Below, in pieces: positions 8,801 to 59,034 of a stretch of DNA of 64,000 nucleotides. The translations under genes were made by a program, and so were the position numbers. Below the pieces are notes generated by a model. It had not been told where the DNA came from. It saw only the letters and a program-made list of their open reading frames with translations, and searched no databases. The stretch is taken from IMG/VR virus record IMGVR_UViG_3300009091_000012, positions 1 through 64,000 of that record; one strand, 5' to 3'. Position 1 is the first letter of the stretch; every line of letters starts with the position of its first letter. This stretch comes from a virus.

Positions 8801-11028
8801 ACATCGATCTTATGCAGGGGGAGCATGGTCTCTATGCGTATAATGTTAATCGAGAGTTACTGGTTTCGAACTGCCCCAGTATCAAAGCACCAGAAAGTGG
8901 TCAGTCTGCGTTGGAGATTTCTGGTCCGGGGCGAGTTGTTATCCAAGGGGTATCTCCTACAGTTGTTGAAGCTAAGGATGCGAACACCGTAGCCTTGAAG
9001 CTAACTGGAAATGGGGAAATTCGTAACGACTTCAGACTTTTAAATGTCGAAGTTACTGCAAGTAAAGGACAGATTCAGTGTGAAAGTCTATCCGCGTACT
9101 TCTATGGTTGTCAGTTCGATGGGTCCACTTCTTTCACTCAGTGTACCGGAGAGCTTCAAACAACGGAGATGACAGTTGGGCTAGCGGTTAGCCAGTCAAC
9201 TCTGGCTTTCTATGACACCAAGATCCAGCTCGGTACAAACGATGGCCCGGATCAAAATTTGACTGTTACTGATAGTACATTAACTGCTTATCGTTCTGAG
9301 GTTACTGGAGATAAGGAAGTCACGATTAGCGGGTCAGTGGTGGACTTCACTTGGACTACGACTGCCTTAGCTGGTGGCACTTGGACGACTACTGATAGTG
9401 TGCTTCGAGGGGTAAAGGCTGACTGGGACAAGGATATTGACGCTAGCGCTTCATCCGTGCTTCAATTTACGAAGACCGACGCTGCAAATATCACCTTAAG
9501 TGGTGCTGACCAAGTTATCGAAGGGCATCTTCTGACTGCGGATAACCTTTCAATCGGGGCGACGTGTGCGGGGTTCATGTCCCATTTGACTGCGACTGCT
9601 CCTGTTTCTACGGGAGCTGATACAGCTTTGTTCGTGAACTACGGTGCTCTGGATGGCGTACAGCTTGGGCAGGCAAACGGAGTAGTTCTGAATCGGGTGA
9701 CTTCGGGGCAGACAACTCTAGCAACTGATATGGCTTTGTTTGTGAATTACGGTGCTCTGGGTGCTTTACAGTTCGGGCAGGCTACTGGTGTAGTTTTGAA
9801 CCGAGTGACTTCGGGGCAAACAACTCTAGCAACTGATATCGGGTTGGTAATGAATTGGGTGGACTCTGGGGCGTTTACGGCTAGTAGTGATGACGCTATC
9901 ATTGCAAACAACTATAGGACTTCATCGAACGTTACAACTAGTAGTGGTTGTGGCATCGTTGGTGCCAGGATGCGAACGACTGCTGCATGGAATATTGGAC
10001 AAGATAACGGTATCATTTCAGCTAAAGGTTCTGGTAGTTGGAGTACTAGTGCTTCGGGTATTGGTGCTCTCTTTGCTAAACATGACACAGCAATTTCGGC
10101 AGGTGGGTCAAATGTAGGTATTATCGGCGCTTCAATGGCTTATGATTTAACGCTTAGTGGGAGTACTACTGGTATCGTTGTTGCTTCTCAGGCAGGAGCA
10201 TCAGAAGCAAAAGGTGTAGTCGCCGCTTATTCAGCCGAGGTTACTGGGTATGGAACAATTATGGCTGCTGGTGGGGATATCACTGCCGATAATGGGCTTG
10301 TAGCCGCAGGATGTACTGGTATTGGATCCGGTGGTTATGGGTGTGTTGCTTCCGGTGGGGCAGGTTCTCCAGATGGGAAAGGATGTGTTGCCATTGGGGG
10401 GGAGTACACGGCAGTATCTGGTAGTAAGGGGGTTGCTGCTGTTGGACCAGAAAGCTGTGGTTCTTTAACCGCAGGAGAAAATGCTGGGATGTTGGCGTTA
10501 GGAAAACATTTTTCAGCTATTTCTACCCCAACAAGTGGGGGGGCTATGTTAGCTGGTACCGAGGTTGACTTAACTTTGGGGGGTTCCTCCGGTACTATTT
10601 TAGCCGGTTGTTCAGTCCCAAGTGGACTTACTGTGACTACTACTGGTGCAGTAATTGGGGCGGCTGTTTCTTCTTCAGCGGCGCATAGTGTAACAGGGGA
10701 TGCAGTTTTACTCGGTAACCAACACTCAACTGGTACTGGGCGAGCAATTACTATGACAAGCCAGACAGATTGTTTAAATCTTGGGTCAACACAACAAACA
10801 GCTATAAAATTTAATACTAATTCAATCGGATTATATAATGCTTCTGGTGGTTCATTTGTGGAAGAAAGTGGTGATGGTGGTGAGAGTCCTGGAACGGCTA
10901 TAGTACTCGGGGCTAATGATCCCTATAGGGGGGCAAGTATTAAACAGCAAGTACGAATTGCTGGAGTTGGAATTACAGATTTATCCCCAATTATTCATCA
11001 TAATTATCCTTATTATGACCCACAATAG
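5875..11028 (+). CDS. giant beta-helix tail spike/fibre protein
   Basis: 1717 residues from ATG 5875 (a GTG at 5866 is in frame but overlaps the upstream gene). Residues about 80-260 are a Cys-rich coil series with recurring 'CxVxFxNCxF' units (e.g. 'CRVEFINCKF', 'CDVKFRDCEF', 'CKLHFTNCDM') typical of a right-handed beta-helix. The middle carries many 20-35-residue Thr/Ser/Gly repeats, among them a 'TSQEGTA/SSQEGDA/TSEEGRP' series near residues 635-730. Residues 1250-1321 contain a tandem 36-residue duplication. The last 350 residues are Gly/Ala/Ser-rich ('GCVASGG', 'GAMLAG'). It probably binds the host surface, perhaps as a depolymerase, but no catalytic residues are evident. Stretches near 6240-7040 and 10080-11030 are AT-rich. 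Confidence 0.75.
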   Translation: MADPVNPHDTTTYGQQQEEKLQHNKAEGEIRDLYGYYRFSDHRLTNIALKEKIYKRQEVWFEGYMDWSFKECLFKAPFHFGVEGERLEEDTRGTEKNPEPFPGYGFNGLNFETCKFKIDDPELSPLFEIRNNCNVVFKGCSFEKGSGDIYPTLSTGDNCRVEFINCKFECSLVFDTFCDVKFRDCEFAENLTSYVSASDHCKLHFTNCDMNHSPENGNWMSLANDCSVVIHGGANLPSLLGKTGTISLANNCHVKIYKMKKVCCTEGIIFSLTNGSKLETFDVEEMSCGAGVCFDIANSEVYVRNTELIKAGFAAICLNDGVFRSDNVKEIRAGQGSAIDASNGSKAQIKNTESIISGKGSAVVLIASTADLADITLVQGLLSGVNASGAGRSYLRRVETVTGATESGIDLSDGVELYGYTVSTINGGLLAGVTLDSARFEITDGTTIHGPKGGIVGTQAHIRVEQVTTISGDDEAGISLADSAYDIRNVQTMSGKSGLTMSNCRGVLLDIGTISGEQEPGAIIEDCSGPTEWDTITTISSNSGDGLVVEGNLKQLRIINVDTITSTSANGVSWTQASGTAFLGHVLSITSTSEVGMTATVTIGSLTLEEVDTITAKMDALNIAGTGEVYGNILGTLTSQEGTAFSVSMSSSGKARFRDLGTLTSQEGTAASLTAQGSAEVALWAVTAPMSSQEGDAAVLTASGDSYITLRDIAGMTSEEGRPLVVTTSGTSETYIYSITSECTAVEVAAWTLTLSGQSQVTVRETAGASSEKGQAVVVNVGAGSILTMDDNTKFSSVEETAFSGTVQGTLKVNNMDEISTEEGRMIVLSGGTDSWIEFTNIPTIKGTNPSEDAVEITGSGTTRLVNIDEIDGGNLSRYIVELTSLGAELGKIEVIDVLSIKATNCRGGLLVQNCGDIEIYCTTSKGSIVCDTGSTHCLSIFSGNAVVRNFSEIKNSDGSMNGVYTYGTGRVTLENIDLMQGEHGLYAYNVNRELLVSNCPSIKAPESGQSALEISGPGRVVIQGVSPTVVEAKDANTVALKLTGNGEIRNDFRLLNVEVTASKGQIQCESLSAYFYGCQFDGSTSFTQCTGELQTTEMTVGLAVSQSTLAFYDTKIQLGTNDGPDQNLTVTDSTLTAYRSEVTGDKEVTISGSVVDFTWTTTALAGGTWTTTDSVLRGVKADWDKDIDASASSVLQFTKTDAANITLSGADQVIEGHLLTADNLSIGATCAGFMSHLTATAPVSTGADTALFVNYGALDGVQLGQANGVVLNRVTSGQTTLATDMALFVNYGALGALQFGQATGVVLNRVTSGQTTLATDIGLVMNWVDSGAFTASSDDAIIANNYRTSSNVTTSSGCGIVGARMRTTAAWNIGQDNGIISAKGSGSWSTSASGIGALFAKHDTAISAGGSNVGIIGASMAYDLTLSGSTTGIVVASQAGASEAKGVVAAYSAEVTGYGTIMAAGGDITADNGLVAAGCTGIGSGGYGCVASGGAGSPDGKGCVAIGGEYTAVSGSKGVAAVGPESCGSLTAGENAGMLALGKHFSAISTPTSGGAMLAGTEVDLTLGGSSGTILAGCSVPSGLTVTTTGAVIGAAVSSSAAHSVTGDAVLLGNQHSTGTGRAITMTSQTDCLNLGSTQQTAIKFNTNSIGLYNASGGSFVEESGDGGESPGTAIVLGANDPYRGASIKQQVRIAGVGITDLSPIIHHNYPYYDPQ
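9622..9837 (+). repeat. tandem 108-bp duplication inside the giant fibre gene
   Basis: Two adjacent 108-bp units (9622-9729 and 9730-9837) code for 36-residue copies that share 'ALFVNYGAL' and 'VVLNRVTSGQTTLATD'. The units differ at scattered, often silent, positions, so the duplication is not brand new. They lie in the frame of the fibre and add two coils. Confidence 0.85.
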
Positions 11029-11043
11029 TGTATAGGAGAGTAT

Positions 11044-11394
11044 ATGAACATCCAGCGGCGGATTGCATACCGTTATTTAAATGTTGTAGGTAATACAGGT
11101 TACATAGCTTTAGATTGTATTGAAGATGTTCGTTTATCCGATTTTGCGCATAATTATTCAAAATGGTGGACTACTGCGTTTGCAGTTCGTAAAACAGCAG
11201 AATATGATGGTTCTAAAGTAAGTAATTATTATGTTCCTGGTGTCTACTCATTAATCTTGGAAGGTTCTACTAAAACTTTTGCTCGTGGCTGGCCTGTTGC
11301 TATTTCAGGCGCGCTTTTATCCGATGGTCGGCGTTTAGTAAAATACAAAACTACGTATCTTCCCTCTGATAAAGGTATTTTTGTGAGCCAATAA
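11044..11394 (+). CDS. hypothetical virion protein
   Basis: 116 residues behind a good AGGAGAG site. No family recognised. The protein is rich in Tyr, Ser and Val with predicted beta-strands ('IAYRYLNVVGNTGYIALDC'), without a signal peptide or membrane segment. The DNA is AT-rich like the 3' end of the fibre gene. It lies between the giant fibre and the papain-fold protein and probably belongs to the tail, perhaps as a fibre accessory or chaperone; this is position-based inference. Confidence 0.7.
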   Translation: MNIQRRIAYRYLNVVGNTGYIALDCIEDVRLSDFAHNYSKWWTTAFAVRKTAEYDGSKVSNYYVPGVYSLILEGSTKTFARGWPVAISGALLSDGRRLVKYKTTYLPSDKGIFVSQ

Positions 11395-12609: not shown

Positions 12610-14130
12610 ATGGCAACCAAGTACAAAGCTGACTACTTTCTGAAAGACTACGCGACGATCCGTACCGAGATGATTTCGCGCCTTCCGATCCTTTCGGATG
12701 GCAAGCTCACTGATCTTAACGAGTCGTCGATCAGTGTTACGTTGGTAGAAGTCTTTGCTGCTATCGCGGATATGCTTGGTTTTTATCTGGACTCCAATGC
12801 TCTGGAAGCCTTTCTTCCTACTGTTCGCCAGCCGGAAAACGTGTATCGGTTAGTTGACCTTATCGGTTATCGTATTCGGGAAGTCACGGCAGCTCGGGTG
12901 CATGTACGTTTCTCTTTGCCAGCTATTTTGGTTGAGGAAGTGTTTATCCCGAAGGGTACTCAGATTGGGACTACGAGTGGTGGTGGGCCAGGGAGCGAGG
13001 GGCTATTTCTGACCCTGGAAAACACTACGGTTCCAATTGGGCAAACTGAGAGTGAATTGGTCGAAGCTGTCCAAGGATACCGATATATCGAAACCTTCTT
13101 GAGCGACGGCACAGCGAATCAGTATTGTGTGTTAACGAGAGATAGTATCGACATCAGCACAATTGAAGTGACTACAGGAACCGTCAAGTGGACTCAGGAA
13201 GAGTCCTTTCTGTACAGCGAGGATATTGATTTTGTCTACACAGTAAAGACCGATTACCTCGGTATTACTAGGATTTACTTTGGTGATGGGAAATTTGGGC
13301 GAGTTCCTTCGGTGGGAGAGAACATCGGCGTGTCCTACATCCGTTCCTCGGGAGCCGCAGGGAACGTTGGAGCCAATTCGATTACGTTGGTGTTCTCTGA
13401 TATCCGAACAGTGAGCACCAACTCGAAGGTCGAAGGAATCGCGGTGATCAACCCGGCTGCTGCCGCAGGTGGTAGCGACCGACAGTTGCTAGAAAGCGTG
13501 AAAACCAACGCTCCCGGCTCTCTGTCTGCGTTGTACCGACCTATGACTAAGTATGACTATACCACCCTCATTGCCCGTCTGGGGGGCATCCAGCACGTAA
13601 ATGTGTGGGGTGAGCAGGAAGAGGATCCACCGTCTTACGAGAACATGAACTGGGCGAATGTGTGTCTTGTCCCGGTTGGGGGTGGGTTGCCATCTATCAA
13701 TCTGCAATCGATCGTGCGGGATTACCTTGTGGAGTATCAGCCAATTACGGTGAGAGTTAGGTTTATTGACCCTGAGTACGTCTATCTTAATGTTTCGATG
13801 GATGTGTATACGCTTCCCGGTTACTCGTTAGAAGACATTCGTATCCAAATCACTGATGCTGTCAGGGTGTTTTTTGACTTAGAGAACGTCCAATTCGGTC
13901 AAGATATCCGAGCTTCTACCTTCTACAAGATCGCTATGAATATTGATGGGGTTGACCACGTGACCGTAGACGATTTTGTAAAGGTAGTAGGCGATACGGA
14001 AACTGATTTAGGGCAAGAAGCCATTTTGCAAAAGTGGGAGATCCCGGTGTTGAACACCTTTACCATTTCGATTCAGGAAGCCACTGAGCTGCCGGTTCCT
14101 GACCTGTACCCAGACGAAGAGATCGAGTAG
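12610..14130 (+). CDS. baseplate J-like (gp6-like) wedge protein
   Basis: 506 residues. The N-terminus ('YATIRTEMISRL', 'LVEVFAAIADMLGFYLDSNALEAFLPTV', 'DLIGYR') is the classic helical start of baseplate J/gp6 proteins. The middle holds 'IYFGDGKFGRVPSVGENIGVSYIRSSGAAGNVGANS', split here by function: a beta domain followed by the Gly-rich turn common to gpJ. The C-terminal 'YQPITVRVRFIDPEYVYLNVSMDVY' domain is also typical. It forms the wedge dimer that makes the inner baseplate ring. It lies between the gp25 gene and a gene carrying an Ig-like domain. Confidence 0.85.
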   Translation: MATKYKADYFLKDYATIRTEMISRLPILSDGKLTDLNESSISVTLVEVFAAIADMLGFYLDSNALEAFLPTVRQPENVYRLVDLIGYRIREVTAARVHVRFSLPAILVEEVFIPKGTQIGTTSGGGPGSEGLFLTLENTTVPIGQTESELVEAVQGYRYIETFLSDGTANQYCVLTRDSIDISTIEVTTGTVKWTQEESFLYSEDIDFVYTVKTDYLGITRIYFGDGKFGRVPSVGENIGVSYIRSSGAAGNVGANSITLVFSDIRTVSTNSKVEGIAVINPAAAAGGSDRQLLESVKTNAPGSLSALYRPMTKYDYTTLIARLGGIQHVNVWGEQEEDPPSYENMNWANVCLVPVGGGLPSINLQSIVRDYLVEYQPITVRVRFIDPEYVYLNVSMDVYTLPGYSLEDIRIQITDAVRVFFDLENVQFGQDIRASTFYKIAMNIDGVDHVTVDDFVKVVGDTETDLGQEAILQKWEIPVLNTFTISIQEATELPVPDLYPDEEIE

Positions 14131-14140
14131 GGAGTAAGCA

Positions 14141-15391
14141 ATGACATTTCCCATTATTGGTACTACAAGTGTTTGGGAGAACTGGAACGGGTCAGGACTC
14201 GGCTCCTGGCGTATGTGGTTCATGGCCCCATATGGATCATGGATATACGCCGGATTTGTACGTGACAATGAGGTCACTTACGAGAAGATCGATATTGGGC
14301 CGGTGGATACAAACTATGAACGTTACAGTTGGGATTTTGGACTAGCGGCGAATACTCCCGAGGATATCTTTACCCATGAGCAGCATGAGGGGAATCCAGA
14401 TGGTGCGATTGGGTGTGGTTGCATTCGAGGAGCAACTCCTAAGTTGTATCTGATTGGGCGAGGAGATGCCGCTCCAGCCACTAATGCCGTTCTGCATCGA
14501 TTTACGGTAGGAACGGGGTTTGTCCAACAAGCGCCAGGAACGATTCCGTTTGATGATTCTCTGACAGATACTCCGGTCAACATCAACCATGTTGCTGGGA
14601 TTGAAGTTATTCAAGGGACCGCTTTCTTTCTTGTGCTCAATAACCGTGACACGAACGAGTTCCGGTTGTTTCGTTACCCCTATACGTGGACTGGTGGAGG
14701 GCAGAATCCTACCCATCATATCGAGCTTTCAACCAATTACATGGAGAATAACCTTGGCGCTCGGGTACGGGGGATTGCTCGGGCCAGTGATGGCAACATT
14801 TTGGTTTTTGTGAACACAGGTGTTACAAATGCTTCCTGTAAGGTGTTGAAGTTCTCTAGTACCGATTTGAGCTACTTGGGGCAGACTACCTGGACCCCGA
14901 ATATCGCATCTGCAACTTGGGGCTATATTGTCCAAGTAGCCGAAGTGTTCATGCTTTTCCAGGGGCTGACCAGCAACTCTCTATATGATTGGAAGACTGC
15001 GATCTATTATGACAGAGCGACTGGGATCCCGGACGGGACGAAGAGCACCTTTATCATTGCTGATAACCTGACGACTTTCGGGTCCAACGAGCCTATTACC
15101 TTGCAGTATGAAGCACGGGATGCGTTCAACATTGCGGTGACAGGAGTGAGCTGCAAGTTCACGATTAACGGTGAAGATGAGGATGACCCCACGACTTGGA
15201 CTGACCGACTTGGCAGTATCCAAGGGAGTACAGGGGTTGATTTCTTCACGACAGATGATGTGCCAACTGCGATTTCGGCAATCGTGACTACTAACGGAAG
15301 CGGTGTTGCGACTGCCTATTATAAACCGATGCGCTCCGGCAGTGGCACGGAGATCGATGCGATTGATGTGTTCTGCCCCTCGGATACCTAA
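14141..15391 (+). CDS. virion protein with propeller-like N-terminus and Ig-like C-terminal domain
   Basis: 416 residues behind GGGAG. The N-terminal 300 residues are Trp/Tyr/Thr-rich with repeating strand-turn units and may form a beta-propeller. The last ~100 residues ('PITLQYEARDAFNIAVTGV', 'NGSGVATAYYKP') look like a Big/invasin-type Ig domain, common in phage surface proteins that bind glycans or cells. Its stop overlaps the next ATG (TAATG). Position between gpJ- and gpI-like genes points to a peripheral baseplate or fibre protein. The function is not known. Confidence 0.65.
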   Translation: MTFPIIGTTSVWENWNGSGLGSWRMWFMAPYGSWIYAGFVRDNEVTYEKIDIGPVDTNYERYSWDFGLAANTPEDIFTHEQHEGNPDGAIGCGCIRGATPKLYLIGRGDAAPATNAVLHRFTVGTGFVQQAPGTIPFDDSLTDTPVNINHVAGIEVIQGTAFFLVLNNRDTNEFRLFRYPYTWTGGGQNPTHHIELSTNYMENNLGARVRGIARASDGNILVFVNTGVTNASCKVLKFSSTDLSYLGQTTWTPNIASATWGYIVQVAEVFMLFQGLTSNSLYDWKTAIYYDRATGIPDGTKSTFIIADNLTTFGSNEPITLQYEARDAFNIAVTGVSCKFTINGEDEDDPTTWTDRLGSIQGSTGVDFFTTDDVPTAISAIVTTNGSGVATAYYKPMRSGSGTEIDAIDVFCPSDT

Positions 15392-17847
15392 TGCCGATAC
15401 CGACTCCTCCGACTGCCCCACCGGTTGAGGCGCATAACCGGGTCTTCATCATTGAACCCATTTTCGTGGGTCAATCGAAGATCTTCATCTATGCGCCGAC
15501 AGCAAGTGCAGGGAAAATTATGGTTATCCCCGTGTCCGATATTTCTCGGGCACAGGGGAACATTATTGTCGAGTCAATCACACAGACCTATTTCCGTGAC
15601 AATATCAAGACGTTCATCCCTTATGAATTTTGGAAGATGGATGCACGGACTATCGAAGAGGGTGGGGGCGAAGGAGCTTTAGCAGCTTACACGGAAGTCT
15701 TCGCTATCACGCTTGACGAAATCAAGCAAGCTATCGACGAATTCCCCCTGTTATTTGATATTGATCATTGTCCACCTAACTACTTACGAGTTATCGCGGA
15801 GCTGTTGAACTACCCCTTGGAAGATACAGACACTACAGCTAAACAGCGAAAGCAGCTTAAGTCTGCTATCCAGTGGTATCAGTCAAAGGGTAGCCAACGG
15901 GCATTCGTGGCAATCTTGTATGCTTTCGGGTTCTATGCCAAGGTCATTCCACTGTGGACGGAAGACTATGAAATTTTCACCGATACGATCCCTGGTGTCG
16001 CAAAAGGCAATGACCCCCCTAACGATTTTCCTCTGCTGATTGAAAACGGGGGGACGTGGTATCGCTCACCCCACTTTGGTATCCGACTTGTTGGCATCGT
16101 CAATGACCAACACGTTTTTGTAGAGTGGGGGAATGCTACTCAGCAGCAGATAGATGCTTTTGAGGCCATAGCAGCTACGTCTAACGCCCATACAGCGTGG
16201 TATCAGATGGTGGATGAACTGAGTGCCGCAGGCGCATTTCTCCGCTATCACTTTTCCGCCGAGGATTTCCGATACATTTGGCGTAGGTTGGAGTTTCTGC
16301 GCCCTGTGTTCGCGGTGCTTGAGTGGTTGGAATTCCTGTTCGAGATGCAAGAGCAAGTAGACGATGCCGTCGAGCCAACCTGTATCATGACAGCGAACCC
16401 AACCCGAAGCGAAAAAGGTTGGTACCTTGGCTATTGCGACCAGGATGACATCCAATACACGCGGTTAGATGATCGTTTGCTTGGCCCGGATTATTTGACT
16501 CTTACTTCCCCGTTGGGCGGTGGGTTACCCGGTTCTACTCCTGTGGTAGATGAGATTGCTGCGACAATATCAGGCTCTCCTAGCCATATCAGTGGCACGT
16601 TGGACAATGCTTGGATGTGGCCGGGTGTTACGTTTACTGTTACGATTGATACGAATCCGGTAAACGTAACAGACGGCATCAATCAGGGGGTGTTCTATTA
16701 CCTGAATGTCCCTGTCACCCATGAGGTAATTGGGGTAGGGGATGGAGTAGAAACCGATTTCCATACTGTACTTGCAAACCACCCGATCATGTATGGCAGC
16801 CCGGATCGGGTGTGGCTTACTCTTCAGATAATGGAAGGAGGCATTCCGTTATCTGTTGATGAGGATGGTGTTATCACAGGTTCTAGTGGTGCCCAAACAA
16901 TTACGGGAGCCATTATCGAAGACACTGGAGAGTTGTGGTTATCCTTTTCGATACCTCCTTCAGCCGGAGACATCGAGATCGATTATGAGTACTGGACCTT
17001 TGAGGAAGGGGAGATCATTGTCCAGTCGGACGAAACTGATGGTGTTACCGAAACTTTCACAGGTACGCTTGAACAATCTCCTTTAACCGAAGGCAGTCTC
17101 GACTGGGTGAAGTTCAATATTGGGCCAGGAACCAAAGCCACTCTCATTACAGATGCAGCAGGAGTTATCTCAGGTGGGGGTGTTACCGGTACCATCAACT
17201 ACACCACGGGAGCGTGGAGTATCACTTTACCTGCTGCCCCAATTGCAGGGTCAGAGGTAATTCTACAGTACTCGTTCCCTCGGTATGAGGGTGTGTTACG
17301 GGCTGAAGGCATCTTAGGAGTCATTGATTACAGCACTGGGTTCTGGTGGTTGGACTTTGCTACCGGCTATGAACCAGATGATGCTACCGATGTTTTAGCC
17401 GACTATACCTATACCTCAGAGGTGCCTCCTACCGATCGTTCAGGAGTGTGGCCTCGTGGGTCAACAGAGCTACCGTTCCCGCATGTGCGTGACCCGCAAG
17501 AAGGTTACTGTCACCCACCGGAAGAGTTGGATATCGATTGGTACTGGATTCCCGAGGAGCAGTACACCTTAGCGTTAACACGAGATGGGATGAACCTTTA
17601 CCCACCGTCTGGCCCGATTCCTTATATCGATCATGCCGATTTCCCGTCTCGTGGGTTTGACTACAACACCCCACTTGAGCCGGGGCACGCTAATACGTTC
17701 ACCCGTCAATACGGGTACTCTACACGTCCACTTTGCCTACTTCGAGTTGAAGCGAACCCTGCTCCTGAAGAGGAAAATTGGGAGAACCAATTTACAGAGT
17801 GGGAGTCGTGGACTGGATTCTGGGAAACTCACGGCGACGGAACTTAG
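15391..17847 (+). CDS. tail protein I-like baseplate protein with long C-terminal extension
   Basis: 818 residues. Residues about 60-200 resemble phage tail protein I: 'PYEFWKMDARTIEEGG', 'IDHCPPNYLRVIAELLNYPL', then 'RKQLKSAIQWYQSKGSQRAF' and 'LYAFGF', the usual helical pattern. gpI-type proteins attach fibres to the wedge. From about residue 350 onward come beta-rich repeats with 'IDYEYWTFEEGEI', 'INYTTGAWSITLPAAP' and 'IDYSTGFWWLDFATG', each about 90 residues apart; these suggest stacked modules. The family's usual length is about 180-250 residues, so this is a large fusion of a gpI head and extra domains. Confidence 0.7.
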   Translation: MPIPTPPTAPPVEAHNRVFIIEPIFVGQSKIFIYAPTASAGKIMVIPVSDISRAQGNIIVESITQTYFRDNIKTFIPYEFWKMDARTIEEGGGEGALAAYTEVFAITLDEIKQAIDEFPLLFDIDHCPPNYLRVIAELLNYPLEDTDTTAKQRKQLKSAIQWYQSKGSQRAFVAILYAFGFYAKVIPLWTEDYEIFTDTIPGVAKGNDPPNDFPLLIENGGTWYRSPHFGIRLVGIVNDQHVFVEWGNATQQQIDAFEAIAATSNAHTAWYQMVDELSAAGAFLRYHFSAEDFRYIWRRLEFLRPVFAVLEWLEFLFEMQEQVDDAVEPTCIMTANPTRSEKGWYLGYCDQDDIQYTRLDDRLLGPDYLTLTSPLGGGLPGSTPVVDEIAATISGSPSHISGTLDNAWMWPGVTFTVTIDTNPVNVTDGINQGVFYYLNVPVTHEVIGVGDGVETDFHTVLANHPIMYGSPDRVWLTLQIMEGGIPLSVDEDGVITGSSGAQTITGAIIEDTGELWLSFSIPPSAGDIEIDYEYWTFEEGEIIVQSDETDGVTETFTGTLEQSPLTEGSLDWVKFNIGPGTKATLITDAAGVISGGGVTGTINYTTGAWSITLPAAPIAGSEVILQYSFPRYEGVLRAEGILGVIDYSTGFWWLDFATGYEPDDATDVLADYTYTSEVPPTDRSGVWPRGSTELPFPHVRDPQEGYCHPPEELDIDWYWIPEEQYTLALTRDGMNLYPPSGPIPYIDHADFPSRGFDYNTPLEPGHANTFTRQYGYSTRPLCLLRVEANPAPEEENWENQFTEWESWTGFWETHGDGT

Positions 17848-17856
17848 GAGGCCACT

Positions 17857-20010
17857 ATGGCTATGACTGGACAAGACCCGAAGGATACCTATCTGGATAT
17901 CCTGTGGGTTGATAACACGAATCTTGGCATTCCTCCGGCCTCTACGGTCACCGTAAAGAGTGGTGGGGGTAACGCCTCTCTCTTAGCTTTGAGTCAAGCT
18001 GAGATCGAGTTCCTCGGTATCCTGAGTGCCACTGTAGCAAGTGGTGTTGTGCTAGAAACCGGGGTGGGTCTGGTTGCTGACGCTGTGACTGTGGACAGCG
18101 TGCTGGATAAGGGTGACCCAACGGTGGGAGTGTTCTTTACCACTGGAGACCCGGAAGGGGCGTTAACCGCAGGAATCGGCTCTTTGGCGTTGCGTGAAGA
18201 TGGTGGGGCTGGGACTACGGTCTACATCAAAGAGAGTGGAACGGGTAACACAGGATGGAAAGCCTTCAACGTTATCGCCAGTTTCACTGATTTAGATGAT
18301 GCTCCTGGCGCTCTTGTTGCTGACCAGTGGGTAAAAGCTAACGCAGGTGGTACTGCCCTAGAGTTTTCTACGGTCCCAGCTCCCAGCTTCTTAGACCTCA
18401 CAGATACTGACCCAACGACATATGCTGGTGCAAGTGGGCAGTATGTTGCGGTTAATGGAACGGTAGACGGGTTGACGTTTGCCGATCCTCCTGTTGGTAC
18501 CTTCATCGCTTTAACTGACACAGACCCGGCTGACTATACCAATGCTGACGGCAATCTTGTTCGGGTGAACTCCACCCCAGATGGGCTGGAATTTCTTGAT
18601 GGCACACAGGGAGATATCCTTTACCACAACGGTACAGCTTGGGTTGCACTTACAGCCGGAACAAGTGGGCACTTTTTACAAACACAGGGAGTTGCGGCCA
18701 ACCCAATATGGGTAAATGCTGGTTCTGGAATTACCTTTATAGATTTAGCTGATACAGATCCAACTGATTACACTGATGATGGTGGCAGTCTTGTTCGGGT
18801 GAACTCGACTCCAGATGGGCTGGAATTTCTTGGTGGGGCCGAAGGCGAAATTCTCTATCACACTGGGACCGCTTGGGCGGCACTAGGTGTCGGCACTAAC
18901 GGTTATGTGTTGACAACTCATAGCACTGGTGAAGTACCGACGTGGGAAGCACTCCCTGCTGCTGAGCTACCTTCAGGAGTGCAAGGGGAAATCCTCTACC
19001 ACTCTGATACTGCATGGGCCGCATTAGGGGTTGGTACTGAGGGGTATGTATTAACTACACATAGCACTGGGCAAAACCCCACTTGGACGGCAATACCTAC
19101 TGAACTTCCATCTGGTGTTCAAGGCAATATTCTTTACCACAATGGTTCTGGTTGGGTTGCCTTAGCTCCTGGTACGACTGGGTTACAACTCACAAGTTCG
19201 GGAGCAGGTGCGAACCCTGTATGGGGGGAGAGTGGTATTCAACATTTTGATACCACAGATGAGGTCAATACTCGGGAGTCATGGCTCGGAGCAGAGATTT
19301 TCGCTAAGATGATTGATTTCGGCACTGGCCCGGATGGTACTTCTACTCCTACTACTAAGAGTGTTGAGTCTGGGTTAGCCATCAATGGGGTATACACTGT
19401 TGTTGACATGCAAGTAACTGCGAATACTCCAGCGGCAGGGTGGCTTGCTAGTACTTATGATGTTGGGGGAAATACCGCGTCATTTACTTATAACAAAATT
19501 GACCAAAAAATTTATTGTACTGCAAACACTGGAACTGATTTATCGGGCACAAATTACTACGTGTTACTGAAGTACATTAAGGAACCGGGGACTTTAGCTG
19601 GGTCTGGGCCACACGTGATTGCCACTATTGTAGGTGAAACTTGGGGTGGACTTGACCAGGGAGTTCATATTCTCTCTCCGGATTTGTACAACTTTGCTTA
19701 TACTGGGAATTACAACGCACCGGGTGCTCTGTCTTTTACGTGGTCAGTGGCTCCGACTACTGATGCTCTCTTCAAGTTTAAGGCTACTGCGGATGTTAAT
19801 CATCGTGAATCATATGGGTTGCTTCAAAATGGGACTGGTACAGGTAATACAGATAAGATAAGCCAGTCGTTTACAGGAACAGAGTGGGTAAACCCGTATA
19901 CCAAAGGTATTGGCCCTGGCAATAATCTCTTTGCGGCATACACTGTGGGAGCATTAACACTGACAATATCCAGACTTTCAGACTTCCCGTTGAAGCCTGC
20001 ACTGGCTTAG
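17857..20010 (+). CDS. repeat-containing tail fibre protein
   Basis: 717 residues after an AGGAGG site. The centre has two interleaved repeat types: 'DLTDTDPxxY...LVRVNSTPDGLEFL' and 'GEILYHxGTAWAALGVGTxGYVLTT'. Both are typical of long phage fibres where each unit adds a short shaft module. The last 250 residues lack repeats and may be the receptor-binding tip; they contain 'GVYTVVDMQVTANTP' and a Gly/Thr-rich beta region. A sulfotransferase gene follows 7 nt later. Receptor and sugar specificity cannot be read from the sequence. Confidence 0.75.
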   Translation: MAMTGQDPKDTYLDILWVDNTNLGIPPASTVTVKSGGGNASLLALSQAEIEFLGILSATVASGVVLETGVGLVADAVTVDSVLDKGDPTVGVFFTTGDPEGALTAGIGSLALREDGGAGTTVYIKESGTGNTGWKAFNVIASFTDLDDAPGALVADQWVKANAGGTALEFSTVPAPSFLDLTDTDPTTYAGASGQYVAVNGTVDGLTFADPPVGTFIALTDTDPADYTNADGNLVRVNSTPDGLEFLDGTQGDILYHNGTAWVALTAGTSGHFLQTQGVAANPIWVNAGSGITFIDLADTDPTDYTDDGGSLVRVNSTPDGLEFLGGAEGEILYHTGTAWAALGVGTNGYVLTTHSTGEVPTWEALPAAELPSGVQGEILYHSDTAWAALGVGTEGYVLTTHSTGQNPTWTAIPTELPSGVQGNILYHNGSGWVALAPGTTGLQLTSSGAGANPVWGESGIQHFDTTDEVNTRESWLGAEIFAKMIDFGTGPDGTSTPTTKSVESGLAINGVYTVVDMQVTANTPAAGWLASTYDVGGNTASFTYNKIDQKIYCTANTGTDLSGTNYYVLLKYIKEPGTLAGSGPHVIATIVGETWGGLDQGVHILSPDLYNFAYTGNYNAPGALSFTWSVAPTTDALFKFKATADVNHRESYGLLQNGTGTGNTDKISQSFTGTEWVNPYTKGIGPGNNLFAAYTVGALTLTISRLSDFPLKPALA
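18283..19230 (+). repeat. coding repeats in the tail fibre gene
   Basis: At least four units related to 'FxDLTDTDPxxY...DGLEF' begin near 18283, 18388, 18502 and 18736. Four units related to 'GxILYHxGxAWxALxxGT' begin near 18607, 18843, 18984 and 19122. The 18502 and 18736 copies are 234 bp apart and nearly identical over 'LVRVNSTPDGLEFL'. Such units are prone to recombination-driven length change. Confidence 0.8.
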
Positions 20011-20017
20011 GTAGTTA

Positions 20018-21169
20018 ATGGGGTTATACGTCGTTTCAGGTTGCCCGCGCTCTGGTACTTCCTTGATGATGGATTGTCTTCGCCATGCATTGGGAGAGGA
20101 GCGGCTGCTCGGGAAACAGTTTGTCCACGAAGAGCCGTCTGAACCAGAGACTCCCATTGAACGATGGCATCAGTATCTTCGGGAGTTAAACCCGCCTACA
20201 AAAAACGATGCGTCTGATGATCTTAACCCTAATGGATTCTGGGAGGATGGTCGATTCACGGTTAAGGGATTACGGTACCGAGCTTCGTTACAGCAACTTC
20301 TAAAGGATATTATCCGGGCGGATAAGCCTTACTTTGCGAAAATTGTTTCACAGGGGCTAGGGAAGACTGACCCGATGTATATCGATCAGGTCATCTGTAT
20401 GTTGCGCCATCCTCGGGCTGTCGCGAAATCTCAAGAGCGGCTTTCCCATCAGAAGTTCAGAACAGCAGATGGTACGCTCTTCGATATCGATAGCAAGGTC
20501 ATTCATACCCCAAAGATGTTCATCAACGTCTCTCTGGTAGCAGCCAAGTGGTTACTGGAGAACCCCGAAATTCCTTATATCATCGTCGAGTATGATGACT
20601 TGATCGAGCAGCCTGCTGAAACCTTAGCTCGTGTTCAGGAGTTTCTTGGAGAAGGAGACTTTGAACGGGCAGCGGCAGTCGTGAACCCGAAGCTGCGTCG
20701 TAGCTACCCCCAGGAAGTGGAGAACTCGCTGTGGGGCGAGGCGGAAAAGACCTACGAGCTGTTTAAACAGCAGAAGCTACAAGAGCTTTTGGACTTCTTT
20801 GCCGATCCCAAACGACTTATTCATCGAGAGACACGAGGTTGGACTTGTGTCCGCTTCGGTGGGGGAGTGAATGAGGCGCAATGTCGAGTCTGTAAAGGCA
20901 GCGAGGAGTTTCGCGCCTCCCTTCGCGGGTTCGCGAACGAACACAGTGTTCCTTGGCGAGAACGCCCTTGTGCCTTCGAAGTCGCTTTTGACTTTGACCA
21001 TCCATTGATTTCGATCGAGGAGAGCATCCAGAACAATTTCTGGGAGGACCAGCATGAATCTGTTCGACAGCATCAAAGTTCCAGAGGGCGTACTCGACCT
21101 GAGAGCATACGAGGTTCCGTCCGGTCGCCTTATCGCACACGTTACTGGCGAAAATATTGTCGTCAATGA
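20018..21169 (+). CDS. PAPS-dependent sulfotransferase-like protein
   Basis: 383 residues. The N-terminal 'SGCPRSGTS' (residues 7-15) is the 5'-phosphosulfate loop of sulfotransferases. 'QVICMLRHPRAVAKSQ' (residues 124-139) matches the 3'-phosphate motif, with Arg130 and Ser138 as the expected binding residues. 'YIIVEYDDLIEQP' resembles the third conserved block. This family moves sulfate from PAPS to sugars or proteins. A 'CRVC' pair sits near residue 290. It lies between a tail fibre and structural genes, so it may modify virion proteins or host surface glycans. Its 3' end overlaps the next gene by 116 nt; the last ~39 residues are basic and look unconserved, so a lost stop or frameshift is possible. 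Confidence 0.7.
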   Translation: MGLYVVSGCPRSGTSLMMDCLRHALGEERLLGKQFVHEEPSEPETPIERWHQYLRELNPPTKNDASDDLNPNGFWEDGRFTVKGLRYRASLQQLLKDIIRADKPYFAKIVSQGLGKTDPMYIDQVICMLRHPRAVAKSQERLSHQKFRTADGTLFDIDSKVIHTPKMFINVSLVAAKWLLENPEIPYIIVEYDDLIEQPAETLARVQEFLGEGDFERAAAVVNPKLRRSYPQEVENSLWGEAEKTYELFKQQKLQELLDFFADPKRLIHRETRGWTCVRFGGGVNEAQCRVCKGSEEFRASLRGFANEHSVPWRERPCAFEVAFDFDHPLISIEESIQNNFWEDQHESVRQHQSSRGRTRPESIRGSVRSPYRTRYWRKYCRQ

Positions 21170-21554
21170 TGGACGACAGGCTCTTGCCCGGTTACTCGGG
21201 CATGACACCACCCAGACGTGGTACGTGGACACCATGAAGTTCGGTGACGGTGGGCATACTGCAACTGTGCCTCCGGGGATGGTTGCTGTTGATGTCACTG
21301 ACACTGACCTCTATGGTGCTATCCACATTTCCAAGGATGTAACTGGTGCAGGGACCACGTTCCCGGCTACTCGGAAGGTGACGTTCACTGCTACGGTGGA
21401 AGCGGCTGAAGGGAATGGAACCGGGGTTCTAGAGTACTCCGAAGCGGGGCTGTACTACAACGCTGGCACCCAGATGTTCTCGCACAAGTCGTTTGGGTAC
21501 ATCGTAAAGAACGATACGATTCGGCTAGTGGCCACGTGGACTTTCACTTTCTAA
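21054..21554 (+). CDS. hypothetical beta-rich virion protein
   Basis: 166 residues from ATG 21054, with GGGAGGA about 6 nt upstream. Beta-rich, with 'NIVVNDGRQALARLLGHD' and 'MKFGDGGHT'; this layout is seen in small phage structural proteins of the tail-fibre region. No membrane segment or enzyme motif. It starts inside the sulfotransferase gene, and its codon use fits its neighbours better than the overlapped sulfotransferase tail does. The following gene begins right after its stop. Confidence 0.75.
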   Translation: MNLFDSIKVPEGVLDLRAYEVPSGRLIAHVTGENIVVNDGRQALARLLGHDTTQTWYVDTMKFGDGGHTATVPPGMVAVDVTDTDLYGAIHISKDVTGAGTTFPATRKVTFTATVEAAEGNGTGVLEYSEAGLYYNAGTQMFSHKSFGYIVKNDTIRLVATWTFTF

Positions 21555-56406: not shown

Positions 56407-59034
56407 ATGGACGAAATGGAAGAGTGGGCCACGCTAGAGCTGGCCATGGCAGAACTGGGTGTCAAACACATGCGCGACCTGTTCGGGGGGAACATCCCCG
56501 TCGCGCAGGTTCTGCAAGGAATTGCGGCTGGCTTGGCCGACTGCGATGTCACGGTCGTGGTAGACCCGAAAGTGACAGTTCCGCAGGCGATCCCGAGCCA
56601 GAGAAAGATCCTTCTTCCAGCCCACGTGAAGTCGGAGCGGGCGTTGCTGATCGTGTCCTGGTATCTCGATCATGAGACCGGGCATATCATCTTCACCCCG
56701 CCGCCCGAGAACACCGTGGAAGGCTGGAAGCAACAGTCCCGTATGCTCGATGTCTGCAAGGCAAAGGGCTATACGGAGATCCCGGAAGAGCTGATCAAGA
56801 CGGCGCACTTCTTCCTCAACTGTGTTGAGGATGCTCGCGTCGAAAACCTGATGGTACGCCGGTTTCCGGGGTGCAAGAAGCACTTCATCGGCGGGCCGAT
56901 TGCGTTGGATCTGCAAGATCCGTTCACGCCGACGCTGGAGAAAGCCAAGGAGATCCAGGCAGCGAACAACCTGCCGCATCCACCGCTGAATCCGTTCTTC
57001 GTCGGAGAGTTGCACGCGAATGCGCTTCTGAACGGTAAGCACGGCCAGTTGGACCGGGACTATATCCGGGGAATCGCGCCGCCGCATGTGAGCTGGGTGC
57101 TCGATGCAGTGGACGATACCTTCGGGGATATCCGGGATGTGTGCGCCGTGACGTTGGAAGATCTGGCAGCGCGGGTGGATAAGGTCATGGCGCTTATCCT
57201 GGAGAAAAAGCTCCCGGATATGAGTGAGGCCGAAGAGAGCGAAGGCGATCAGGAAGGCGAGGAGCAGGGTGGCGACGATCGCTTTGCCGAAGAGTTCGCC
57301 AAGCCCAAGAAGGGCAAGAAGAGCAAGAAGGGCAAGAAGGGAGACAAGGATGAGCAATCCGATAGTGACTCCGATGGAGCAGATGAAGCTGGAGAAGGAG
57401 ATTCTGACGAATCTGAGTCCGGAGACGGAAGCGATAATGATGCTGGTGCAGGAAGCGTGGGAGACGAAGATGAGTCAGATTCGGAAGGAGAATCGGACTC
57501 TGAGGGAGGAGAAGGAGACGCTGCTGGCGAACATGATGGCAGCGAGGAGGACGATGAGGATTCTGAAGACGATGATTCAGAATCTGATGGCGTATCCGGG
57601 GCCGGAGATGACGAAGACGATTCAGATGAAGGTGATTCGGCGTCTGGGGGAGACGATGAAGAGGGCGACGACGGAGATGACGAGGATGACGCCGATGAAG
57701 ATTCTGGAGACGACGGCACCGAAGGCGATGACCAAGATGATGAAGGAGATCGAGACGGAAGCGAAGAAGGCGAAGAGGACGCTGAGGGAGATGGAGAAGA
57801 CGAAGAAGAAGTCGCTGCCGAAGGCGATTCCGACGACGCGCTGACCGGAGACATCAGCAAGCAGGCGCAGTTCGATCAGTTGATTGAGTGGGCGCAGGAT
57901 GCTCAGACGGACATGGCGCAGCTCATGCGAGAGGCGCAGGAAGCGGAGGAAGCGGCCAAGCAGCAAGCGGCTGTAGAGTCGAACAGCGCCACAGCCGGTT
58001 CACCGAGTATGGAGCATGCCCCGGATGCGGAGGGGATGCCTGACGAGTATCTGGCACGGTTGGACCCCGGAGTCGGGGTGGTCGTGATCGCGGATCAGGA
58101 TCTGGACGCACTGGTTCAGGATGATGACTCCGCCTTCCAGGAGTATGACCGGTTTATCCAGGAGATTATGCCCCATGATCTGGGGCCAGCCGCTCGGCGG
58201 CTGATGGGCAAGTTCAAGAGCGCACCGGGCAAAGCGTGGCAGGGGAATCGGATCAACCCGAAGATGCTGCAACCGATCATGTCCGGACACGCTCATGGCC
58301 GACCGCTGTATCTCCGACGCCAGGAGACGGTGCAAAGCAAAAAGGGCGTGGTCGTCATGCTGTGCATCGATTGCTCAGGCTCGATGATCTCGGATGTGCC
58401 GGGGTTGAATCTCCCGAGACCGCACAACTCCAAGTTCGCGATCTCGCACGCAGCAGGCCGGGGGATCGCTCGGCTATTGCAGCGGATACAGGTGCCGTTT
58501 GCGGTGATGGGCTACACCACCGATACGACGAACAACAATCGTCGTAACTATAACGCATCGAGGCAGATGGACATCGTCAACTTCTTGTTCAAGGATTTCC
58601 ACGAGCCGTGGACGACTTGTGAGCAGAAGATGCTGGCGATGAACGCTTTCACTCGCACGACTTATAAGGGCCGGTATATCTATCCGGAAACCAATTCCGA
58701 TGGTGAGTCGCTGCTGTGGGCGGCGACACAGATCATCACCCGACCGGAGGATCGGAAGATCATGATCGTGCTGTCGGATGGGCTGCCAGCGGCAGGGGAC
58801 TACACGATGCAGTCCAAGTTCCTGAAGTGGGCAGTGCGCCGGATCGAGATCGCGGGCATTCACATTGGAGCGTTGGGTATTGGAGATCGTGGTGTGACCC
58901 ACTACTACCGGATGTATGAACTGCTGGATGTGTTCCCCCAAGGTTGGGGAGACAAGCACACGGCACCGTTCCTCATCCAGGAGAAGCTGATCACACTCAT
59001 CGATCGGTTGGCAACGGACCAGACGGGGAGCTAA
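56407..59034 (+). CDS. cobT: CobT-like protein: metalloprotease-like domain, acidic linker, VWA domain
   Basis: 875 residues. The N-terminal domain has 'LDHETGHIIF' (HExxH, 89-93) and 'NCVEDARVENLM' (138-149), the pair seen in gluzincin-type metalloproteases and in CobT. Residues about 315-480 are almost only Asp, Glu, Ser and Gly. The C-terminal VWA domain has the MIDAS 'CIDCSGSM' (Asp655, Ser657, Ser659) and a later 'VLSDGLP'. VWA proteins of this class are partners of MoxR/CobS ATPases. The linker DNA also holds a long second frame. Confidence 0.85.
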   Translation: MDEMEEWATLELAMAELGVKHMRDLFGGNIPVAQVLQGIAAGLADCDVTVVVDPKVTVPQAIPSQRKILLPAHVKSERALLIVSWYLDHETGHIIFTPPPENTVEGWKQQSRMLDVCKAKGYTEIPEELIKTAHFFLNCVEDARVENLMVRRFPGCKKHFIGGPIALDLQDPFTPTLEKAKEIQAANNLPHPPLNPFFVGELHANALLNGKHGQLDRDYIRGIAPPHVSWVLDAVDDTFGDIRDVCAVTLEDLAARVDKVMALILEKKLPDMSEAEESEGDQEGEEQGGDDRFAEEFAKPKKGKKSKKGKKGDKDEQSDSDSDGADEAGEGDSDESESGDGSDNDAGAGSVGDEDESDSEGESDSEGGEGDAAGEHDGSEEDDEDSEDDDSESDGVSGAGDDEDDSDEGDSASGGDDEEGDDGDDEDDADEDSGDDGTEGDDQDDEGDRDGSEEGEEDAEGDGEDEEEVAAEGDSDDALTGDISKQAQFDQLIEWAQDAQTDMAQLMREAQEAEEAAKQQAAVESNSATAGSPSMEHAPDAEGMPDEYLARLDPGVGVVVIADQDLDALVQDDDSAFQEYDRFIQEIMPHDLGPAARRLMGKFKSAPGKAWQGNRINPKMLQPIMSGHAHGRPLYLRRQETVQSKKGVVVMLCIDCSGSMISDVPGLNLPRPHNSKFAISHAAGRGIARLLQRIQVPFAVMGYTTDTTNNNRRNYNASRQMDIVNFLFKDFHEPWTTCEQKMLAMNAFTRTTYKGRYIYPETNSDGESLLWAATQIITRPEDRKIMIVLSDGLPAAGDYTMQSKFLKWAVRRIEIAGIHIGALGIGDRGVTHYYRMYELLDVFPQGWGDKHTAPFLIQEKLITLIDRLATDQTGS

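Follow-up and report, generated by a model that had tools for sequence, protein, structure and literature searches.

What does a sulfotransferase do in the middle of a phage tail block, and which molecule receives the sulfate? The question is raised by a gene in a viral DNA stretch of 64,000 nucleotides (hereafter the window; positions 1 to 64,000 of IMG/VR record IMGVR_UViG_3300009091_000012), which belongs to a virus record of 88,204 bases. A 168-kb IMG/VR contig (IMGVR_UViG_3300033485_000002) carries the same region with 99.97% identity over 11.1 kb. Because this near-identical contig has the same region, the genome of the virus probably measures 168 kb or more, with the 88-kb record as a fragment of it. 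A 16-kb DNA stretch had no match in the annotated phage collection.

Position of the gene in the tail block

The open reading frame at 20018-21169 on the plus strand was borne out as real and open, with exact coordinates. The first reading of the sequence had placed a sulfotransferase amid tail genes, and this was confirmed: the gene follows a tail fibre and lies downstream of the Baseplate_J and Tail_P2_I genes, in the following arrangement (positions in the window).

12610..14130, plus strand: Baseplate_J-type baseplate wedge protein, further upstream (Pfam and PHROG matches)
15391..17847, plus strand: Tail_P2_I-type tail protein, upstream (Pfam match)
17857..20010, plus strand: tail-fibre gene, 717 aa, directly upstream of the sulfotransferase (phrog_9851 tail fiber, E 2.6e-7)
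20018..21169, plus strand: sulfotransferase gene, 383 aa (Pfam Sulfotransfer_3 and Sulfotransfer_1 above cut-off; 26-sequence alignment)
21054..21554, plus strand: phrog_5417 gene with no assigned function, next after the sulfotransferase (PHROG match; same order in L103 and L104)

The stop of the fibre gene (17857-20010) is separated from the start of the sulfotransferase by 7 bp. At its other end, the sulfotransferase frame overlaps the gene at 21054-21554 by 116 bp; the last ~38 codons, lying in this overlap, are not conserved, and the conserved part stops near W342 (residue 342-345). Loci L103 and L104 have comparable overlaps with the next gene (113 and 137 bp) and an unconserved basic tail as well. 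Elsewhere in the window, a large protein is encoded at 56407-59034, with a PHROG match to phrog_1576 (no known function) and a weak one to the CobT subunit of aerobic cobaltochelatase.

Assignment to the PAPS-dependent sulfotransferases

The PAPS-dependent sulfotransferase motif set, previously recognized from the letters alone, was upheld by profile searches and alignment. In Pfam, the window protein scored 34.3 bits against Sulfotransfer_3 (cut-off 27) and 24.8 bits against Sulfotransfer_1 (cut-off 22), and both models were matched by every one of the 15 proteins in the initial family alignment. Moreover, both PAPS-binding motifs were invariant in the alignment of 26 phage proteins.

20039..20062, plus strand: 5'-phosphosulfate-binding loop, residues 8-15, GCPRSGTS (G8 and R11-S15 invariant, 26/26)
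20405..20431, plus strand: 3'-phosphate-binding motif, residues 130-138, RHPRAVAKS (R130 and S138 invariant, 26/26)

Residues R11, S12, G13, T14, S15, R130 and S138 were thus identical in every aligned protein, and R130/S138 of the window enzyme align to R130/S138 of the SULT structure 1cjm. Besides these and G8, the invariant positions of the catalytic part include N70-P71, G73-F74, E76, K108, V110, G113, V135-A136, P199 and R228-S229, among which E76 of the NPxGF.E motif is a candidate catalytic base only.

Used alone as a query, the window sequence matched no PDB chain; a profile built from 15 relatives matched many solved sulfotransferases (best E 1.3e-6). The AlphaFold2 model of the enzyme (mean pLDDT 76, pTM 0.67) was weak at residues 31-80 and in the 38 C-terminal residues, and in a Foldseek search against the PDB all matches up to E 0.001 were sulfotransferase-fold enzymes, with a tyrosylprotein sulfotransferase in first place. 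The best of these matches had E 7e-6 and a probability of 1.00, but TM-scores of only 0.3-0.4 with a model partly of low confidence; with such low TM-scores the PAPS pocket stays putative, and its residues are backed by conservation and the SULT alignment. As profiles, motifs, the fold search and the APS-kinase neighbours (see below) agree, it is well supported that the window protein is a PAPS-dependent sulfotransferase, for which we infer catalysis. It is probably soluble and belongs to a phage family of its own.

A phage family with a C-terminal four-cysteine module

Homologous proteins were encoded at 28 loci in IMG/VR, with 34-53% identity to the window protein. These loci represent 27 distinct phages if the window phage is taken together with its own 168-kb copy and a pair of near-identical jumbo contigs is likewise counted once, which leaves 26 distinct relatives beyond the window phage, several of them on contigs of 200-476 kb. 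The enzyme had no tblastn match among the 50,697 records of the annotated phage collection, at either E 1e-3 or E 1e-2. Behind the catalytic part, the family carries an additional module.

20846..21043, plus strand: C-terminal four-Cys module, residues 277-342 (C277, C289, C292, C318 ... S336, W342; Cys invariant 26/26)

The invariant residues of the C-terminal part in the 26-sequence alignment are C277, R279, C289, C292, P317, C318, S336 and W342. Four invariant cysteines in such spacing suggest, from sequence, a metal site, which would probably bind zinc. The profile of the module matched viral proteins only, among 15,362 six-frame peptides, and it was found in none of the 80 sampled cellular loci with catalytic-domain homologues. 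The module is present twice at the C-terminus of the L013 protein (9899-11245), and this duplication suggests that it is an independent folding unit. In L012, a second, diverged sulfotransferase copy with a partial Cys module (14697-15587) follows ~3.6 kb after the first, in the downstream direction. A tree was built from the catalytic domains of 26 viral and 35 cellular proteins, the latter a non-exhaustive sample drawn via pattern search; in it, a branch with 100/100 support separated the viral proteins from the rest.

A recurrent fibre domain encoded beside the enzyme

Comparison of the neighbouring genes revealed a recurrent C-terminal domain, designated FD, in the product of the gene that immediately precedes the enzyme. 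It is an all-beta domain of ~160 aa (its profile has 161 positions), located in the window as follows.

19579..19986, plus strand: FD, the C-terminal beta domain of the window tail fibre (43% identical to the FD of L103 and L104)

Over 29 whole records, the FD profile detected 43 copies in 24 records, whereby 37 of the 43 were within 10 kb of the enzyme. The nearest copy was less than 100 bp away in 16 records, and in 16 loci, the window among them, the FD gene directly precedes the enzyme; in L013 and L014, an APS kinase gene stands between the two. On some large contigs, among them G003 (341 kb), G014 (232 kb) and G019 (174 kb), there is a single FD copy, and it adjoins the enzyme. There was no detectable FD in 5 of the 29 records, G004 and G005 carry distant copies, and in L119 and L122/L123 FD occurs without a detected enzyme within the sequenced DNA. 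Since genes beside the enzyme supplied the sequences for the initial FD profile, this adjacency is partly selected for. A uniform-placement estimate for the 16 records that were not among the first seeds gave ~1e-27 for the FD-enzyme closeness, a crude figure which takes no account of how the domain was chosen among neighbours, of common descent or of genome modularity and serves as a guide only. The reverse search of IMG/VR with FD yielded 8 distinct phages, 6 of them with the enzyme.

Whether the neighbours are alike merely through kinship of the phages was checked, and most locus pairs have no other detectable protein in common. Besides the enzyme and FD, the pairs have at most 5 common proteins, the exceptions being L110/L111 and L103/L104/window. 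The window FD is itself a divergent member, with iE 0.13 against a profile built without its clade; the L103 FD, its syntenic homologue, reached iE 1.3e-7 with a profile built without the window clade, and the window fibre compared directly with L006 gave a blastp E of 2.7e-8.

The FD model is a confident all-beta structure (pLDDT 90, pTM 0.85). Its fold search against the PDB returned no convincing match (best E 0.51), and FD has no PDB sequence match, no Pfam family and no match in the annotated phage collection; the fibre-like neighbours had only weak PHROGs matches, with function unassigned. A near-invariant tyrosine of FD, considered as the sulfate acceptor, is disfavoured because phages without a detectable enzyme retain it. 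At L119:6914-8118, an FD protein is encoded with no sulfotransferase in the sequenced DNA, and the next gene looks glycosyltransferase-like by eye, with no Pfam match.

Genes for PAPS supply and glycosylation

APS kinase (CysC) makes PAPS from APS, and genes for it (PF01583) scored above cut-off in 7 of the 29 records. They directly adjoin the enzyme in G006, G010, G011 and G026 and lie elsewhere in G004, G008 and G009; the adjoining genes are at L009:2256-2816, L013:9399-10001, L014:9446-9943 and L112:11029-11652. Because of this adjacency in relatives, PAPS as the donor is independently supported. APS kinase was found neither in the 88-kb record of the window phage nor in its 168-kb copy.

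Glycosyltransferase genes are adjacent or close to the enzyme in L011, L014 and L015, the last with another such gene 2.6 kb further on. The fibres beside the enzyme are rich in Ser in L010, L015 and L017; to judge by their composition, such Ser-rich fibres would suit O-linked glycans. Very long Ser-rich tracts are present in the fibre-like proteins encoded at L010:1660-3708 and L015:6064-9903, which are possible glycan carriers.

Proposed function and alternative explanations

The explanation towards which the analysis leans is a cassette of late genes for sulfation of the virus's own tail fibre, or of a glycan attached to this fibre, a substrate that we infer from the gene neighbourhood. The enzyme, consisting of a SULT-type domain and the C-terminal four-Cys module, would be produced alongside the tail proteins and, with PAPS as donor, would sulfate the fibre of the same phage, with the C-terminal FD of the neighbouring fibre or a sugar on that fibre as the likeliest acceptor. 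Negative charge thus placed at the fibre tip might alter receptor binding, stability or shielding. PAPS would be provided by the host in the window phage and, in some relatives, partly by a phage-encoded APS kinase. Family membership, motif conservation, the Cys module, the FD linkage and the APS-kinase and glycosyltransferase neighbours are computed results. Against fibre sulfation count the partly selected adjacency, the FD copies that are distant from the enzyme or occur without it, the five records with no detectable FD, the retention of the FD tyrosine in phages without the enzyme and the moderate quality of the enzyme model. The preliminary description had named both virion proteins and host surface sugars as targets; given the link between the enzyme and a recurrent fibre-tip domain in divergent phages, a virion protein or its glycan is now favoured, host surface sugars being less probable. 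More tentatively, the enzyme and FD, sometimes with APS kinase and glycosyltransferases, might constitute a dedicated and widespread virion-sulfation system that places sulfate or sulfated glycans on the fibre.

The strongest alternative to fibre sulfation, albeit an unlikely one, is sulfation of a glycan on the host surface, whereby the receptor would be masked or altered and either re-adsorption to debris prevented or superinfecting phages excluded. The enzyme would then stand beside the fibre because both it and the receptor-binding protein would have to suit one particular glycan, and such receptor matching would also yield the linkage to a fibre domain. Bacterial carbohydrate sulfotransferases target surface or secreted glycans, and the L003/L021 protein has a weak NodProtNoeE match; the glycosyltransferase neighbours fit either substrate. 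However, the gene is located in the tail block, late-expressed in most phages, and it is linked to one fibre domain across phages with few common neighbours and presumably differing hosts and receptors, which speaks against a host glycan.

It is improbable that the gene is a general auxiliary metabolic gene, its product sulfating a small molecule or nucleic acid or using up PAPS, with the proximity to the fibre being incidental. Virome papers do class phage sulfotransferases in this way, with no known function (PMC10580990, PMC8290583, PMC13079714), and phage nucleotide sulfation systems are cited in PMC10829341. In contrast, the FD linkage in divergent phages and the family-specific Cys module point to a dedicated substrate. 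Least probable is a P-loop protein with another activity, for example a kinase-like one, or with a part in fibre assembly purely as a structural component or chaperone: the sulfotransferase fold is akin to that of nucleotide kinases, the viral fold search gave weak kinase matches and dedicated fibre-assembly proteins beside fibre genes are common in phages, but the invariant RSGTS and R...S 3'-phosphate motif, Pfam matches above threshold in 15/15, PDB fold matches solely to sulfotransferases and the APS-kinase neighbours argue against it.

Through the FD linkage, the neighbouring fibre becomes a concrete and testable candidate substrate for the subfamily, and FD becomes a marker for finding more members. 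If virions are indeed sulfated, this bears on phage-host binding and on the annotation of genes now counted as sulfur-cycle genes. Virion sulfation would then be a post-translational modification without a published report for phage particles in the open-licence literature, and the previously undescribed fibre domain FD would mark the system responsible.

Comparison with known sulfotransferases

Several papers report sulfotransferases from viromes and the genomes of phages (PMC10580990, PMC8290583, PMC12285232). The function of those from marine phages and viromes is stated as unclear (PMC10580990), or they are given only as auxiliary metabolic genes (PMC8290583, PMC12285232, PMC13079714). The earlier remark that such genes are rare in phages therefore applies to the window subfamily, which had no tblastn match in annotated phages, but not to sulfotransferases as a class. 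A full-text search of the open-licence literature found no paper on a tail-linked sulfotransferase or on sulfated virions. Phage sulfotransferases are known, and the fibre-linked subfamily appears to be undescribed.

With the Sulfotransfer_3/Sulfotransfer_1 enzymes, the window enzyme has both PAPS-binding motifs and the domain profile match in common, whereas the phage family forms a separate clade and adds the four-Cys module (0/80 sampled cellular loci). TPST1/2 and the heparan sulfate 3-O-sulfotransferases are among the closest solved folds (Foldseek) and have the same PRSGT-type 5' loop, but the sequence likeness is confined to short stretches and overall TM-scores are low. Full-length homology to TPST was not found, the profile reaching human TPST only over residues 1-19 with E 0.02 or worse. 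The sulfotransferases of cyanophages and marine phages (e.g., Synechococcus phage S-SCSM1) are likewise phage-encoded and of the same fold class, yet the window family had no tblastn match to the 50,697 phage records. CysC, the APS kinase that makes PAPS, adjoins the enzyme in four relatives and is absent from the record of the window phage and its 168-kb copy. Overall, the window enzyme belongs to a known enzyme class, but its phage subfamily is distinct, and both the module and the conserved partner of this subfamily are new.
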